64,000 nucleotides of DNA, taken from NCBI RefSeq assembly GCF_002741035.1, contig NZ_CP016808.1:6961001-7025000 (forward strand), in the 5' to 3' direction. Each line of letters starts with the position of its first letter. The first letter of the stretch is position 1. The stretch is from Paenibacillus sp. BIHB 4019 (lineage in GTDB: Bacteria > Bacillota > Bacilli > Paenibacillales > Paenibacillaceae). A program made the translations under genes and the position numbers. Positions 52,804-59,396 of this stretch are shown here, piece after piece. The notes under the pieces were generated by a model. It did no database searches, was not told the origin of the DNA, and saw only the letters and a program-made list of their open reading frames with translations.

Positions 52804-53961
52804 TTACAGCTTATATTTTCTCATAAGCGGAACGCCGGCCGCCAATAAAAGCTTGCTAAGACCGCTCCATACCGCTCTCCTCCCTGCCGAAAGATGCCTG
52901 ATGTACACCGCACTGTATTCCATTTCCGCTTCCGCCCCGCGAATGCGCTTAAAATTAGCCGCCCCAGAGCTGAGATGCAGCAGCTGTCCGCGATCCGCAG
53001 CGGCTTGCATCGCCAAATGCATCAGTATTCGGTAAAGGCCATTATGCTGGGGAAGCGCCGTATTGTAGCCGACCAGCGGTACCGATATGACCTCCCCATG
53101 AATAAAACAGCCCATCACGCCTTGCAAAACCCCTTTCTCATCGCGGAGCCCGGTCATTTCCAGCAGACCTTTCTGATGGCAGTGGCGAATATATTCAGCG
53201 GTAAACTGGGGATTGAGCGCCGAATATTTGCCCACATACAGCAGGTCATACAGCTCCGCAATGCGCTCATAGTCCGGCTCGCCAAGTTCAGCATGGGGTA
53301 CGATACGATAGCCAGACTGGGCGAGCAGCTTGCGGTCCCACTTCGTATTCTTTTTCTTCAAGTACAACGGATCGGCTCCATTGAAAAAATAAACCTGCCT
53401 GCTCGGGACCAGCACATAGCCCTGCTGCAGCAATTGCGCAAGCAGCTTCTCATTTGTGCGCCTGTTCAGCGAACGATAAATAATTGCATGCTTCGGATAG
53501 CTTGCTGTTAACGTCTGTGTAGCTCCCTCCAGCTCATACGAGCTTATTTCAGTGTACAAATTCGTTGAAAGCAGCCAGTTGTTCACATGGACGTTTCGAT
53601 CAATTTGAGCCCAGCGGAGCAGCGGCGCAATCGCCTTAAGCAAGGAGCCGCACAGGAAGCGCAGCAGCGGATTTTCCAACAAATAAAGCTCTTCTTCCGC
53701 ATACTTGACATACGTTCCATAAGGGGAGCACACATAAGAATTGTCATATTCCTGCTCATTAACCGTCAGGGGCAGCCATGCTTGGCCCGCCTGCAGCAGC
53801 CGCAGCTCCGTGCGCACGTTGCGGATAAATAATTTTACCCCGTTTTGCATCAAGGGAAGCATATAATCAGCCGCTTTATTTCGTTCCCCCTTTTTTGTTG
53901 CGGCAAGCGCTGTTATTTCTGTAAGGTCCAGCTCTTTAACGACCGTCTTAGTTAGGGGCAA
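52804..53961 (-). CDS. GNAT/FemX-like acyltransferase of the biosynthetic cluster
   Basis: A 385-residue cytosolic protein. The C-terminal half (about 215-350) has the pattern of a GNAT or FemAB-like acyltransferase (LYDLLYVGKYSALNPQFTAEY, GVLQGVMGCFIHGEVISVPLVGYN, GLYRILMHLAMQAAADRG, LSSGAANFKRIRG). The N-terminal half is less clear. GGAGG stands 7 nt before the TTG at 53959-53961. It is the last gene of the six-gene cluster, 31 nt behind the adenylating enzyme. It would transfer an acyl or aminoacyl group to the product. The family is inferred from fold-like motifs, not a clear named match. Confidence 0.62.
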   Translation of the reverse strand: MPLTKTVVKELDLTEITALAATKKGERNKAADYMLPLMQNGVKLFIRNVRTELRLLQAGQAWLPLTVNEQEYDNSYVCSPYGTYVKYAEEELYLLENPLLRFLCGSLLKAIAPLLRWAQIDRNVHVNNWLLSTNLYTEISSYELEGATQTLTASYPKHAIIYRSLNRRTNEKLLAQLLQQGYVLVPSRQVYFFNGADPLYLKKKNTKWDRKLLAQSGYRIVPHAELGEPDYERIAELYDLLYVGKYSALNPQFTAEYIRHCHQKGLLEMTGLRDEKGVLQGVMGCFIHGEVISVPLVGYNTALPQHNGLYRILMHLAMQAAADRGQLLHLSSGAANFKRIRGAEAEMEYSAVYIRHLSAGRRAVWSGLSKLLLAAGVPLMRKYKL

Positions 53962-53992
53962 AGCTGACCCTCCTTTCTTTCCTTCATCCGTT

Positions 53993-55306
53993 CTAAACCT
54001 TCCACTTTCGCTCTACCCGCCGCAGCTTGCGCAGCCCCTGATCCGCTTCATATGGGACAAATGCAATCAGCGGCGCCATGCAGCCGCGTGAAGTAAACAG
54101 CTTGGACAGCGCAGCGGCAAGCTCCGGGTGCAGCTCCTCTGGCGCTCCATCGACGCGCAGAGCTACTTCCAGCTGCCGATCCGATTGCTGAACGACCTTG
54201 TATTCCTTAATACGCTCTGAGGACATAATGACCGCCCGCCTTATAAAATCGGGAAAAATCGGCACAAGCCGCTGTGTATCCGCATCGCGTCCATAAAATA
54301 AATCATCCGTCCTGCCTTCAATGGAGGCAATCGCCGTAAAGCTGGAGCCACAGGCACAAGGCTGCGTCGCCTCCGTCAGCAAATCATTAAGCCGATATCG
54401 CACGATAGGCTGCGTTTCCCGTGAAAAGTCAGTAATGATTGGCGAGAAGATACGCTGCTCCTCGTCCACATATTCCTTCTCAATGACGAGTATATCCTCG
54501 TTCAGATGCAGGGTGCCCTGTGAGCAGGTAGCAGCGAGGAAGCCTTCTGTACATTGATAAATTTGATCGACGCGCACGCCAAAAGCCTGCTCAATAAGCT
54601 GCTTGTCCAGCGGCTCAAGCACTTCTGCAACCGAGATCACTTTACCCGGCGCAATGAACAGCTCTCCGGCAAGCTGCGCTTCAGCGAGCAGCCGCAGCAT
54701 GGACGGCGGTGCAACCAGCAGCGTCGGCTGCTGCTCGCTTAACAATCGCACATTGTCCTCTACTGGATGGATCATGTCGTAAAAACGGAATTGCAGCCGC
54801 TTGGAGCGCACGCTTTGGTACAAATGGCTGTCCGCCCGCAGAAAAAAAGCGATCCGCTGCCGCACAAGCAGCGAGGCTGGCAGCGCCTTTGCCAGTACCG
54901 TTCCCGCCCATGCTGCGCGTTCCTTGGCACTGACCAGAAACAAGCCCCGGCTGCCTGATGTGCCTGACGACAGGCCGACCGCAATATCGCCGATCTGCGC
55001 GGAGAAGTCCCGTTCCCGCTCGGCGCGCAGCGCGATTCGGAATGCTTCCTCCTTCGTAATACCCGCTGTGTTCAGCTGGTCAAAATGGTCCATCATTACC
55101 GCTTTATCGATCGTTGGGAAGCTGCGCCAATTATGTGCATCCAGCCCTTGATAATAGCTTCGGTAAAAGGGCGATTGCTGGCGTACCCGCTTCACAAGTG
55201 CCACAACTTTGCGGTGCTGCCAGGCTTCCAGCGCCTTCCGGCTGCGAAAGCGCCGGGAGCGCACCCGTGTCAGCACATAATAGACCAGCAGCCTTAATAC
55301 TCTCAT
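53993..55306 (-). CDS. Adenylate-forming enzyme, PaaK / F390-synthetase type
   Basis: A 437-residue AMP-forming enzyme related to phenylacetate-CoA ligase and coenzyme F390 synthetase. Motifs: P-loop-like VGLSSGTSGSRGLFLV, VISVAEVLE, YQCTEGFLAATC, the ATP-binding YRLNDLL and the zinc/Cys-type CACGSSFTAIASIEGRTDDL as in PaaK. It should activate a carboxylate as acyl-AMP. The ATG at 55304-55306 follows GGAGG by 7 nt and overlaps the stop of the MBL-fold gene (ATGA); the longer frame upstream lacks a site. In the cluster it could activate a fatty or beta-hydroxy acid. Confidence 0.85.
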   Translation of the reverse strand: MRVLRLLVYYVLTRVRSRRFRSRKALEAWQHRKVVALVKRVRQQSPFYRSYYQGLDAHNWRSFPTIDKAVMMDHFDQLNTAGITKEEAFRIALRAERERDFSAQIGDIAVGLSSGTSGSRGLFLVSAKERAAWAGTVLAKALPASLLVRQRIAFFLRADSHLYQSVRSKRLQFRFYDMIHPVEDNVRLLSEQQPTLLVAPPSMLRLLAEAQLAGELFIAPGKVISVAEVLEPLDKQLIEQAFGVRVDQIYQCTEGFLAATCSQGTLHLNEDILVIEKEYVDEEQRIFSPIITDFSRETQPIVRYRLNDLLTEATQPCACGSSFTAIASIEGRTDDLFYGRDADTQRLVPIFPDFIRRAVIMSSERIKEYKVVQQSDRQLEVALRVDGAPEELHPELAAALSKLFTSRGCMAPLIAFVPYEADQGLRKLRRVERKWKV

Positions 55307-56148
55307 GCTCTCGCCTCCTGCCACGCTGTGCAGCGTTTCCACGTTTCCCCGCAATGCGTGAAAATTTGCTGGAGCTCCGGATTTCTCCGTTTCAGCTCGA
55401 CGAGCCGGTCGAACGTTTCCTTAAACTCCTCCCGGTTGTCGAACACGATGGAGGCTAGCGCATGAGGAGGGCGATTTTCCCGCACCGCCGCCTCCGACCA
55501 GCTGGCGTCTGCACCGAGCAGCAGCTCCTGCCCCGTATCGCCCTGCAGCAGCAGCCCGAATTGGTCGGCCGCATGGCCGGACAAACGGATAGCCGTTACG
55601 CTTCCATCATTAAATAAATCGTATCCCTTATGGAAGGGGGCATATTTCGCTGGCAGCTCCACCTCGTTTGACTGCTCGATCCAGCGTGTCCGCTTGGCAA
55701 AATCAGGCGGCAGCAGCTCGGGCAAAAAAGCTTTTTTTACCGCTGCAAATCCGTTCAGCGGCTGGACAGCCGCATATGCCTGCTGCGAGCAAATAAACGT
55801 CGCCTCGGGAAAATCCCGCAAGCCGCAAACATGGTCGGCATGGAAATGCGAGACGATAATATGCTTAACCTCGCGCAGCGAATAGCCTGCAGCCTGCACA
55901 TGCTCCGCCGCAGAGCGTTCCCCGGCAAGCGTAACGGGGGTCGTCCAGCGGTAAAGCGCATAAGGCAGCCGCTTCGTCGCTTCGAGAAAGCGCGGCGAAT
56001 AGCCGGTATCAAATAATACCGGCCCTAGCACAGGATGTTCCATTATAGCAAAAATACCCGGAAATGCTTGCTGCCGCCAGCGCCCCCCGCTAATCGCCAG
56101 CGCCTCCAGCTGCTTGCAGCAGCCCGTATTATGAAAAGTTATTTTCAT
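55303..56148 (-). CDS. Metallo-beta-lactamase-fold hydrolase
   Basis: A 281-residue MBL-fold enzyme with the zinc motif SHFHADHVCGL, LFDTGYSP upstream, LSGHAADQFGLLLQGD downstream, and a C-terminal IFTHCGETW. It resembles lactonase/esterase-type members. GGAGGAG precedes the ATG at 56146-56148, which overlaps the reductase stop (ATGA). Within the cluster it may act as thioesterase or lactonase, e.g. releasing product from CoA; this is inference. Confidence 0.87.
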   Translation of the reverse strand: MKITFHNTGCCKQLEALAISGGRWRQQAFPGIFAIMEHPVLGPVLFDTGYSPRFLEATKRLPYALYRWTTPVTLAGERSAAEHVQAAGYSLREVKHIIVSHFHADHVCGLRDFPEATFICSQQAYAAVQPLNGFAAVKKAFLPELLPPDFAKRTRWIEQSNEVELPAKYAPFHKGYDLFNDGSVTAIRLSGHAADQFGLLLQGDTGQELLLGADASWSEAAVRENRPPHALASIVFDNREEFKETFDRLVELKRRNPELQQIFTHCGETWKRCTAWQEARA

Positions 56149-57143
56149 CGTGTCTCCTCCTGCTCTTTCCACCAAGCTGCGAACCTCCTAAGCCCTTCCT
56201 CGACGCTCACAAGAGGCCGATAGCCCAGCTCCCGCTGTGCCTTCTCGATAGAAAGCGTTTGGCTGAACGCAAGAATGCCGACCGTATAACGGGTCAGCAG
56301 CGGTTCTTTGGCAAGCCCCGGCAGCTTCGCCGCCAGCTCCAGCAAAGAGGCCGCACTATACGCCGCGGGGTATGCAATCTTCTTGGTCCGGATCGGTTTA
56401 TTTAGCATGTCAAACAGCCTCGCCATAGCTTCCCACAGCTGAATAGGCTCGCCATTCGTAATATTGTATTTCTGTCCAAGCACAATCGGATCGGCGTACA
56501 GACAGCGCATGAGCGCTTCCGTCACATTATCCACATACGTAATATCGACAAGCGGCTGACCGCTTCCGAACACGGGAATAAACCGTTTGTCATTTGCCCG
56601 CAGCAGCCTTGGAAAAATCGCCTTATCGCCAGGCCCGAACAACGCCCGCGGCCGGATCGTCACCACGCGCAATCCCTGCTCACGATAAGCGCGGTCAACC
56701 TCTTGCTCGGCAAGCAGCTTCGTCGCCGCATAATGATTGACCGCTGCTTTCGGCAGCGGCTCATGCTCTGCAATATTAAAGCGATGGCGATAGTCAAAAT
56801 AGATCGAAGGCGTCGACACATGCACCAGCCGCTGGACGCCTTGCTCCAGGCAGCCTTGTATGACATGGCGCGTGCCCATAACATTGGATGCATAGAAGTC
56901 GCGATACTTGCCCCAAGGCGAAGACAAGGCGCCGCAATGAAACACGGCGTCATGACCGGCAATCGCTTCGCTCATTGCACGGGAGGCTAAATCCAGCTGT
57001 AAAAATGCCGCTCCCGCCTCGCTGAGCCGCCTGCCTGCCTCTTGATTACGCCCGGCTGCGGTCACCGTATGGCCTTCCTTCAGCAGCCGATATACCGCAT
57101 TTTCGCCTAAAAATCCGGTAGCCCCTGTTACCAGTATGTTCAT
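56145..57143 (-). CDS. NAD(P)-dependent epimerase/dehydratase, OleD/3-beta-HSD-like
   Basis: A 332-residue extended short-chain dehydrogenase: nucleotide-binding TGATGFLGENAVYRLLKEGH, a Ser/Tyr/Lys catalytic set (VHVSTPSIYFDYRHRF; YAATKLLAEQ with Tyr and Lys), RPRALFGPGDKAIFPRLL and DITYVDNVTEAL. It is most like the 3-beta-hydroxysteroid-dehydrogenase/OleD subgroup, which reduces 2-alkyl-3-ketoacids. GGAGGCG precedes the ATG at 57141-57143. It follows the ATP-grasp gene by 17 nt. In the cluster it could reduce the keto product of the KAS III-like enzyme. Confidence 0.88.
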   Translation of the reverse strand: MNILVTGATGFLGENAVYRLLKEGHTVTAAGRNQEAGRRLSEAGAAFLQLDLASRAMSEAIAGHDAVFHCGALSSPWGKYRDFYASNVMGTRHVIQGCLEQGVQRLVHVSTPSIYFDYRHRFNIAEHEPLPKAAVNHYAATKLLAEQEVDRAYREQGLRVVTIRPRALFGPGDKAIFPRLLRANDKRFIPVFGSGQPLVDITYVDNVTEALMRCLYADPIVLGQKYNITNGEPIQLWEAMARLFDMLNKPIRTKKIAYPAAYSAASLLELAAKLPGLAKEPLLTRYTVGILAFSQTLSIEKAQRELGYRPLVSVEEGLRRFAAWWKEQEETR

Positions 57144-57160
57144 CCTCGCCTCCTCCTTTC

Positions 57161-58372
57161 TCATCCATTCCATTCAATATCAGCAGTTGTAAAAGCAATA
57201 AGCGGCTGCTCCGCCTTGCGTGCCCGCCGCCATAAATCAAACCAAACATAACCTTGCATCAGAAATGGACCAGGGTCCTTCCAGCTGAAAATAACATCCC
57301 GGCCGCCTGCCATGCACGCCAGCCAGTGCCAAGAGCCGCGCCATAGCCCGCGCTGGCGCCGCTGCTGCGAGAGCCCATAGGCCAGCATCGCTGCCGCGAT
57401 CATTTTGCCCCGCGATTGCTGCGGCATAATGATGCTGCTGCGCTGGCCTGTCCCCCACAAGGCGCGGCCGAGCCGATCGCGCTTGTCGAACAGATGCAAT
57501 CCGCTCGTCGCTCGCGGATTGCACTCAAGCGGCCATACCGCGCCGCTCTCGTCTATTATAAAATCAAAAGCGATTTGGCCTGTAAACTGCGTATGCGCGG
57601 CAAACGTCTCCACCCATTGCCGCAGCTGCGGCTGATGGCATGCCTGAAAGAAGGTGCTGGCTCCCCGTCCAGCAGTAAAGTCGACTGCGTAGTCGGAATA
57701 GGCAAGCAGCTTGCCTTCTTTTGCAATCGAATACGTGCAATATTCCTGTCCTGCTACGTAAGCTTGGGCTACCCAAGGGGAATCTGCGGATAGCTGCAGT
57801 TCCGCAGCAGGAGGCGGCGACTCGTTTGCATGCCATATATGCACTTTCGTTGCAAAGCGGGAATAGACCGGCTTCAGCACCCATATTTGCTCTGAAGCGG
57901 AATTATGCAGCTGTTTTAGCTCAGTGTAGCAACGCAGCTGCTTCGTCTCTGGGGCGGCAAGCCCCGCCTCCCGAACCATCTCAATAAACGCCCATTTGCT
58001 GTGCAGGGCGGTGAGCTTTTCCGCTTCATCGGTGAAAACCATGCAGCTTCCAAGCTTGCCGCGCAGCTTGGCAATATAATAAATTTCCTCGCAGGTTGGA
58101 ATAAGCAGCTCGATGCTGTACTTTTCCACCATTGCCGCAAGCGCTTTGCCAAATGCCGCCTCGTCCACTCGTGGCGCTGGAAGCACCTCATAACGCTTAA
58201 TGCAGGTTGAAAAGCGAATGAGCGGACTCGCCATGCTGTCCGCTGCATAAACCTCATAACCCTGCTCCGCCAGCTGACGGGCTAAATCCAGCGCAGCTGG
58301 CGCTCTTCCGCCCGTAATAAGAATGCGCCGCCCGGTGCGTATTTCCTGCTCTTGGCCTGTTTTAATATTCAA
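57161..58372 (-). CDS. ATP-grasp ligase
   Basis: A 403-residue ATP-grasp protein with an N-terminal Rossmann-like part (RRILITGGRAPAALDLARQLAEQG), central ATP-binding part (IWVLKPVYSRFATKV) and metal-binding end (AFDFIIDESGAVWPLECNPRATSGLHLF, with the Glu and Asn ligands). It resembles the carboxylate-amine ligases of secondary pathways (CarB-like group) but not a named enzyme. Start is a TTG at 58370-58372, inside the end of the KAS III-like gene, so the two overlap by 11 nt. It would join an amine, often an amino acid, to a carboxylate. Confidence 0.85.
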   Translation of the reverse strand: MNIKTGQEQEIRTGRRILITGGRAPAALDLARQLAEQGYEVYAADSMASPLIRFSTCIKRYEVLPAPRVDEAAFGKALAAMVEKYSIELLIPTCEEIYYIAKLRGKLGSCMVFTDEAEKLTALHSKWAFIEMVREAGLAAPETKQLRCYTELKQLHNSASEQIWVLKPVYSRFATKVHIWHANESPPPAAELQLSADSPWVAQAYVAGQEYCTYSIAKEGKLLAYSDYAVDFTAGRGASTFFQACHQPQLRQWVETFAAHTQFTGQIAFDFIIDESGAVWPLECNPRATSGLHLFDKRDRLGRALWGTGQRSSIIMPQQSRGKMIAAAMLAYGLSQQRRQRGLWRGSWHWLACMAGGRDVIFSWKDPGPFLMQGYVWFDLWRRARKAEQPLIAFTTADIEWNG

Positions 58373-59396
58373 TAATCATCCCGCCTAACGAAATGCCCGC
58401 TGAAATGCCAATGAGCGCAAAGCGGTCACCACGCTGCAAGCGGCCCTGCTGGATGGCCAGATGAATGCCCATCGGCAGAGAAGCCGCAATCATATTGCCG
58501 TGATTTTCAATAATGTTCATGAACTGCTCGGGCGCAATGCCAAGCTTTTTCTGAAGCAGCCGCATAGCAAGGGCGCTGCCTTGATGCGGAACTACGAGCT
58601 TCAGTTCGGACATGTCGATGCCCGCCTCCTTAAACAGCCGCTCGATAAAGTCGGGCAGCAGCTTAGACGTTTTGCGAAACAGCGCCTCGCCCTGCATCGC
58701 AAACAAATATTGCTCCGCATTTGCCGCCCCGTACTGTGTAGAAGGCAATCCTGATCCGCCTCCGCGAATTTCCGACAGCTCGCGTCCCGATCCGTACGTC
58801 TCCATACGGGAGGCGATAATGGATGAGCTTTCGCCTTCACCACTTCTGCCAATGACTACCGCTGCTGCCCCGTCACCGAACAGCGTAGCGCTTTCGGGAT
58901 GCCTGTCATTAAGGCCGCTTGATGCAATTTCCGGCGATACAAGCAGCACTGTGTCGTATCTGCCCGCTTCTATCATATAAGACACCATATCAAGCGCCGC
59001 TAGAAACGACAAGCAGGTCGTATTTATGTCGAAACAAGGAATACCTGATTCGCCTGCCCACATCTCATCTTGAATGAGCGCCGCCGTGCAAGGGATAAGC
59101 TGCTCAGGAATCGCATTGGCACATATGATGCAGTCCATATCGTCAAGCTCAAGTCCTGCATCCTCCAAAGCGGCAAAGGCAGCCTTTGCGCCCATGACTG
59201 ACGCGGCTTCGCCAGCTGCGTAATGCCTGATTTTCACGCCTGATTTTTTATATACCCAGCCTTGCGGCTTATTCAGTTTTTCGTCCAGCTGCTCCGCTGT
59301 CACCATTTGGGATGGCAAGTAGGAGCCCGTTCCCCATATTCGTACATTCCGTTGTTGCTTATGCTTGTTTCTTGCATGCATAACCCTCACCGCCAT
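58362..59396 (-). CDS. 3-oxoacyl-ACP synthase III-like condensing enzyme (OleA-like)
   Basis: A 344-residue thiolase-fold enzyme. Catalytic Cys128 in DINTTCLSFLAALD, His271 in VVPHQGSA and Asn301 in ENHGNMIAAS are all present. It is not the housekeeping FabH in context: there are no fab genes, and it heads a biosynthetic operon. It probably joins two acyl thioesters in a Claisen reaction. The start is uncertain: ATG at 59396, or the ATG at 59379-59381 (MHARNKH) with GGTGAGGG just before. First gene of the cluster; direct and inverted repeats lie upstream. Confidence 0.9.
   Translation of the reverse strand: MAVRVMHARNKHKQQRNVRIWGTGSYLPSQMVTAEQLDEKLNKPQGWVYKKSGVKIRHYAAGEAASVMGAKAAFAALEDAGLELDDMDCIICANAIPEQLIPCTAALIQDEMWAGESGIPCFDINTTCLSFLAALDMVSYMIEAGRYDTVLLVSPEIASSGLNDRHPESATLFGDGAAAVVIGRSGEGESSSIIASRMETYGSGRELSEIRGGGSGLPSTQYGAANAEQYLFAMQGEALFRKTSKLLPDFIERLFKEAGIDMSELKLVVPHQGSALAMRLLQKKLGIAPEQFMNIIENHGNMIAASLPMGIHLAIQQGRLQRGDRFALIGISAGISLGGMIIEY

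Follow-up and report, generated by a model that had tools for sequence, protein, structure and literature searches.

A four-gene core of condensing, reducing, hydrolysing and adenylating enzymes with exchangeable tailoring genes in Paenibacillus and other bacteria: a candidate pathway to lipid-like beta-hydroxy acid metabolites

A six-gene operon of Paenibacillus sp. BIHB 4019 is encoded on the minus strand (positions 52804-59396) of a 64,000-nucleotide stretch (contig NZ_CP016808.1, positions 6,961,001 to 7,025,000), referred to here as the window. It contains a beta-ketoacyl-ACP synthase III-type condensing enzyme (KAS III), an extended short-chain dehydrogenase/reductase (SDR), a metallo-beta-lactamase (MBL)-fold hydrolase and an F390-synthetase-related adenylating enzyme (F390). 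As judged from gene content, these four are the conserved unit, while the remaining two genes, for an ATP-grasp ligase and a GNAT-fold transferase, represent one tailoring set among several. The finding extends beyond the window, since the core cassette is found across phyla together with lineage-specific finishing genes. Tentatively, and with somewhat less than even confidence, the four enzymes are proposed to build an activated lipid-like beta-hydroxy acid which is finished by enzymes specific to each lineage. With slightly better than even confidence, the cassette would be the core common to a class of lipid-like bacterial metabolites not described so far, with end groups differing by lineage (amide, glycoside, sulfate, hydroxylated or unsaturated), present in E. 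coli including Nissle 1917, small-genome Bacilli, Fusobacterium and Paenibacillus, and following a condense-reduce-release-readenylate logic distinct from Ole, Pseudomonas quinolone signal (PQS) and fatty-acid synthesis. The genes of the operon are, in order of transcription:

58362..59396, minus strand: KAS III condensing enzyme (NF005541/PRK07204), core gene
57161..58372, minus strand: ATP-grasp ligase (PRK06849-like, slightly below the cut-off), tailoring gene
56145..57143, minus strand: OleD-like extended SDR, core gene, preferred start ATG 57143
55303..56148, minus strand: MBL-fold hydrolase with HxHxDH motif, core gene, start ATG 56148
53993..55306, minus strand: F390-synthetase-related adenylating enzyme (ANL/PaaK type, TIGR02304), core gene, start ATG 55306
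52804..53961, minus strand: GNAT-fold acyl- or aminoacyl-transferase (PF13480), tailoring gene, TTG start behind AAAGGAGGG

The conservation of the cassette was read from 64 F390-bearing loci, 60 of which were found via F390 and four via the KAS. All four core genes are present in 57 of these loci and all six genes in 33. The loci with the full core span Bacillota, Fusobacterium and alpha-, beta- and gammaproteobacteria; the six-gene set, as far as the loci read indicate, also crosses phyla, the four genes being the common denominator. An earlier note on this DNA had described a six-gene unit. This stands as regards a conserved operon, while the unit that is conserved comprises four genes. Seven loci fall short of the full core (L039, L056, L057, L077, L079 and the contig-end pieces L078 and L080). 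Among the six families, the order SDR-MBL-F390 is kept in 57 of the 64 F390 loci; L087, scored as an exception, has this order by annotation, and in L044 other genes intervene. The KAS gene opens the cassette in most loci; it closes it in 11, those of Fusobacterium, G578 and nine of a genus designated g49, which we read as streptococcal from neighbouring genes of L075 (ffh and guaA, among others). Pairwise protein distances between the six families are correlated (r 0.83-0.92, n 18-34, none of 999 permutations as high), to which shared species history contributes.

In a sample of 119 genomes, own genome included, scored by the cut-offs of TIGR02304 and NF005541, the 24 genomes above the TIGR02304 cut-off are identical to the 24 above that of NF005541, an agreement that exceeds chance. 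KAS, ATP-grasp, SDR and F390 occur together in all 24 (the window and 23 further loci, L004 and L052-L073), which settles the concern of the earlier note that the homologues might not be kept together in relatives. The MBL gene is found in 22 of the 24 operons and the GNAT gene in 21 (none in L060, L061 and L067); 12 operons continue with a second SDR of the classical type, and five have a Rieske oxygenase. Weaker TIGR02304 matches in 30 further genomes (54/119 at E<=0.001) are taken to be other PaaK-type proteins. Among 14 control genomes, one (Deinobacterium chartae) scored above the TIGR02304 cut-off and none above that of NF005541. In two relatives a gene is split over two open reading frames (ORFs) by sequencing error or decay, GNAT in L053:9318-10489 and F390 in L073:7899-9313.

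The cassette is accessory in distribution and is also found on large plasmids. TIGR02304 was above the cut-off in 41 of 250 Bacilli and in 27 of the 98 g49 genomes (1.5-2.6 Mb); at E<=1e-60 it was found in 9 of 398 Bacillota. Some proteins named as cyanobacterial are among the protein matches listed (120 of 4688). Paenibacillus algorifonticola was the sole locus in a scan of named genome contigs, with an F390 94% identical to that of the window. On the Pseudomonas megaplasmid pBASL58 (L044), KAS, SDR, MBL, F390 and ATP-grasp genes are spread over approximately 13 kb among hypothetical genes, and on a second one, pMPPla107 (L039), F390 and ATP-grasp genes are located among hypothetical genes in the stretch read.

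The KAS III scores 437.5 bits on NF005541 (NCBIfam), above the cut-off of 402; the KAS members of E. coli and Fusobacterium score 333 and 303, respectively, and fall below it. The Cys-His-Asn triad (C128, H271, N301) is invariant in all 43 aligned KAS rows, in agreement with the full triad noted earlier. The accompanying description as OleA-like does not hold. The nearest solved relatives are MxnB (4v2p, 7.5e-75) and CorB (4yuc, 2.8e-68), and none of the OleA PDB entries checked is among the 40 solved sequences matching the KAS at E<=1e-20. The position of the glutamate of OleA (E117) and PpyS (E105) is occupied by I101 in the window KAS, aligned to V94 of MxnB; over the 43 rows, isoleucine is found in 27, leucine in 15, glycine in one and glutamate in none. 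In a passage of PMC4578411, this glutamate is described as deprotonating the bound first chain in OleA and PpyS, MxnB and CorB carrying valine there. OleA orthology was rejected with MxnB and CorB as the nearest relatives and the glutamate absent throughout. An OleA-style joining of two plain acyl-CoAs is, on these residues, not favoured for the KAS III: without the glutamate of OleA, a plain acyl-CoA would be an improbable nucleophile, and a malonyl or beta-ketoacyl thioester is the favoured one.

A KAS tree of 48 rows, including E. coli FabH, two FabH-type paralogues of the window's genome, MxnB, CorB and a Priestia protein (L082), places 42 cassette-type KASs on one side of a branch with a support of 98/97. 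E. coli FabH and the two FabH-type enzymes form a separate group (100/100). MxnB, CorB and L082 are positioned between the cassette KASs and FabH, MxnB and CorB thus outside the 42-row clade; their order there, relative to FabH and to one another, has a low support of 77/32, with long-branch warnings. The L086 KAS belongs to the clade, yet is without other core genes beside it. At L082 (7992-11620), on a Priestia megaterium plasmid, the related KAS III outside the clade is followed by genes for an acyl carrier protein and an MMPL transporter. The cassette KAS is not the only FabH candidate of its genome, as the earlier note had considered, since two other ORFs score above the cut-off of TIGR00747 (FabH).

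The best NCBIfam family of the SDR is OleD (NF042422), with 242 bits falling far short of the cut-off of 580, so that the earlier designation as an OleD-like reductase is retained for the family and not for membership at the cut-off. Y148 and K152 (numbered from the longer ORF, start 57173) are invariant in 41 of 41 rows. The MBL protein has a weak match to an AHL-lactonase-type family (Pfam/NCBIfam), and its HxHxDH motif, H201 and H274 (numbered from the ORF start 56175; the motif Asp was read directly from printed alignment rows) are invariant in 39 of 39 rows, giving a complete metal site. It is probably a thioesterase or a lactonase. In the PDB, lactonases were matched and nothing named PqsE was found in 14 sequences at E<=0.01, a single-sequence search being a weak test. 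The adenylating enzyme reaches 527 bits on TIGR02304 ('F390 synthetase-related protein', cut-off 251.9), and no Pfam match was obtained for the window copy. Its SSGTSG loop, YQ(C/A)TEG motif and C-terminal Lys443 (numbered from the ORF start 55354) are conserved in every row covering them, and among solved structures it is closest to PaaK-type ligases and AjiA1. The assignment to the TIGR02304 subfamily is in line with the earlier suggestion of an AMP-forming enzyme different from that of the olefin pathway.

Of the two tailoring proteins of the window, the ATP-grasp ligase narrowly missed the PRK06849 cut-off (383.6 bits vs 406), is encoded in all 24 operons of the relatives and carries E283, N285 and R287, invariant in 35 of 35 rows; the GNAT protein matches PF13480 (Pfam). 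The position of the GNAT gene after F390, together with the ATP-grasp gene, suggests an amide in the window organism, and joining to an amine or amino acid, as suggested in the earlier note, would fit this pair of enzymes. TIGR02304 is named 'F390 synthetase-related protein' and PRK06849 'hypothetical protein', the window F390 belonging to the first and the ATP-grasp protein lying slightly below the cut-off of the second; they assign no function or pathway, and what is added here is the shared gene cassette.

Other lineages combine the core with different genes. In E. coli, the stretch from narI to the rtT/tRNA-Tyr region holds the core, after which come genes for PAP2, FA_hydroxylase and FA_desaturase proteins, giving a seven-gene version (L037:6137-13018 and L081:7001-13882). 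The first six genes of this version match in 672 of 5426 complete E. coli genomes (approximately one in eight); Nissle 1917, UPEC 26-1 and ST131 strains are among the matches listed, as is strain S7, which has the cassette at two places. The best NCBIfam family of the FA_hydroxylase protein is OlsE, with a weak match. Relatives of the PAP2, FA_hydroxylase and FA_desaturase trio are found in Burkholderia stagnalis. The KAS gene of the two Rhodobacterales loci (Paracoccus sp. MA and Ketogulonicigenium) has genes for a sulfotransferase and a TetR-type regulator beside it on the opposite strand, and in Fusobacterium and G578 the core is accompanied by a Glyco_transf_21 protein, a classical SDR and a protein of unassigned family. 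Five of nine loci of genus g49 encode a GT28/EryCIII-like glycosyltransferase, and L132 of the same genus has ATP-grasp and GNAT genes. Paraburkholderia, Rhizobium, Shinella and Roseateles encode all six genes and a Rieske protein, with the ATP-grasp gene on the opposite strand in the latter three. The second SDR of the relatives has PRK06914, without assigned function, as its best model; on that of 3-ketodihydrosphingosine reductase it reaches 207 bits, the cut-off being 400. The lipid character of the product is suggested by such partners in other lineages, most of which fall well short of the cut-offs set for named lipid enzymes.

We infer the order of reactions, the substrates and the product from what can be read in the sequences themselves, namely enzyme families, intact catalytic residues, linkage and exchange of tailoring genes. 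The KAS III would load an acyl group onto Cys128 and, with a malonyl or beta-ketoacyl thioester supplied by primary metabolism, carry out the condensation, a step proposed because of the kinship to MxnB, CorB and FabH and the missing OleA glutamate. The beta-keto group would be reduced by the OleD-like SDR, and the thioester hydrolysed by the MBL enzyme to give a free hydroxy acid. Adenylation of this acid by the F390-related enzyme would exchange a carrier-bound chain for a newly activated one. In the window operon, the ATP-grasp ligase and the GNAT transferase may then attach the activated acid to an amine or amino acid; glycosyl- or sulfotransferases, a hydroxylase and desaturase, or a Rieske oxygenase may finish it in other lineages.

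Several observations weigh against this proposal. L056 and L057 have no MBL gene between SDR and F390 with the rest of the operon present (the search covering the operon). F390 stands alone in L077 and L079, and the KAS alone or with other partners in L082 and L086. No tailoring gene adjoining the core was recognised by eye in L131 and L133 of genus g49, which would fit a self-contained product (a beta-lactone or a free hydroxy acid) equally well. The near-fixed order SDR-MBL-F390 and the two ATGA overlaps fit a hand-over from enzyme to enzyme, gene order being weak evidence. OleD acts on the free keto acid, and by analogy such substrate use would place hydrolysis before reduction.

The main rival is an order resembling that of PQS biosynthesis, in which activation comes first: F390 would make an acyl-CoA or acyl-AMP from a starter acid, the KAS III would extend it with a malonyl-thioester, the SDR would reduce the product, and the MBL protein, acting as a PqsE-like thioesterase, would free the beta-hydroxy acid for tailoring. 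In the PQS pathway, PqsA is an ANL ligase, PqsD and PqsBC are FabH-like and PqsE is an MBL-fold thioesterase, so that similar enzymes are combined there. The PaaK-type ligases and AjiA1 as best solved relatives of F390 favour this order, as does the presence of a 'PQS biosynthetic enzyme' (3h76, which we take to be PqsD) among the solved structures related to the KAS III. By this order, a complete product would come from the four core genes by themselves, suiting L131 and L133. However, the MBL protein matches lactonases and nothing named PqsE in the PDB, the SDR is kin to OleD, and gene order and overlap tie F390 to MBL and SDR, while a starter-activating enzyme might be expected beside the KAS, as is the case in the 11 KAS-last loci. 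The cassette differs from the PQS system further by the additional SDR, by MBL and ANL proteins of other subfamilies and by the absence of a PqsBC pair. An activation-first order is considered unlikely, with perhaps one chance in a few. Next comes a beta-lactone route reached by convergence with the Ole pathway, with F390 closing the beta-hydroxy acid as OleC does and the MBL protein opening, editing or decarboxylating in place of OleB. OleABCD likewise combines a thiolase-superfamily condensing enzyme, an OleD-type SDR, an ANL enzyme (OleC) and a hydrolase; the best family of the SDR is OleD, the MBL protein is lactonase-like, and some loci have the core with no recognised tailoring gene beside it. 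The cassette KAS, however, lacks Glu117 of OleA and is nearer to MxnB, CorB and FabH, the SDR remains far under the OleD cut-off, F390 is of the PaaK kind (TIGR02304) and not OleC, and the hydrolase has an MBL rather than an alpha/beta-hydrolase fold. Within the six proteins, to which the search was confined, neither an alpha/beta-hydrolase as in OleB nor an AMP-binding Pfam match as expected for OleC was found. These differences uphold the earlier statement that this is not the standard olefin pathway, and beta-lactone closure is regarded as distinctly improbable.

The proposed enzymes could also serve another end use, for example to make a signal, a part of the envelope or spore, or a metabolite linked to defence. 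Such a use would suit the accessory distribution, the large plasmids, the presence in 672 of 5426 E. coli genomes and the TetR-type regulators adjoining the KAS in L040, L043, L084 and L086. Clustering of neighbours, on the other hand, gave no regulator or exporter common to most loci, and none of the six proteins had a match in PADLOC at E<=1e-5, by which a known anti-phage defence system was rejected. Another end use is rated as rather improbable. A divergent FabH for housekeeping fatty-acid priming, with its neighbours placed by chance, would agree with the NCBIfam name 'beta-ketoacyl-ACP synthase III'. It is set against the two FabH-type genes elsewhere in the genome, the separate clade of the KAS, and the strict linkage combined with patchy presence (24/119), and is largely refuted, with hardly any probability left to it.

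The systems producing myxopyronin and corallopyronin, in which two carrier-bound chains are joined to an alpha-pyrone, are related through MxnB and CorB, the nearest solved kin of the KAS III, which share its Cys-His-Asn triad and lack a glutamate at the position of PpyS E105. According to a passage of PMC5724707, MxnB condenses two carrier-protein-bound chains. The cassette operon, in contrast, is without a polyketide synthase or carrier protein, and its KASs form a clade of their own.

The families of the enzymes are known, while the cassette and the exchange of its partners appear undescribed. No paper describing the cluster or its product was recognised in searches of the open-licence PMC literature, most subscription papers lying outside this scope, so that an earlier description under other names is possible; within this literature, the earlier claim of an undescribed, acyl-derived pathway, rather than a described cluster, is sustained. 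Passages on F390 or adenylate-forming enzymes in PMC5467263, PMC2649909, PMC9823363 and PMC10849742 are incidental or concern another system. If the proposed reading is right, a pathway class has been overlooked because the adenylating enzyme is named 'F390 synthetase-related' and the window copy has no Pfam match. Roughly one in eight complete E. coli genomes would then encode it, including that of the probiotic Nissle 1917, a tractable strain, and a comparison of lineages that differ in tailoring genes would reveal the ways in which a single scaffold is decorated.

The six minus-strand ORFs, their families and their tight spacing (overlaps of 4-11 nt, gaps of 17 and 31 nt) were confirmed at the coordinates given in the earlier note. 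With catalytic residues intact, the six genes are judged to be real, with no sign of decay in the window. Starts were chosen by a good ribosome-binding site, and the spacing was computed from such starts. KAS and ATP-grasp genes overlap by 11 nt, the latter having a TTG start with a weak ribosome-binding site. The gap to the SDR (ATG 57143) is 17 nt, the SDR/MBL and MBL/F390 junctions are 4-nt ATGA overlaps (ATG 56148 and ATG 55306, respectively), and a gap of 31 nt separates F390 from GNAT (TTG 53961). Promoter-like sites were not in excess (7 vs a shuffle mean of 6.2) and terminator-like sites in little excess (12 vs 8.3, sd 3.2). A search for a phage origin gave no evidence of one (4 records, <=24.4% identity). 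The G+C content of the operon is 54.9%, compared to 49.9% for the window. In the closest genomes (L004, L053 and L055), the flanking gene families are common to all three and, by eye, also to the window.

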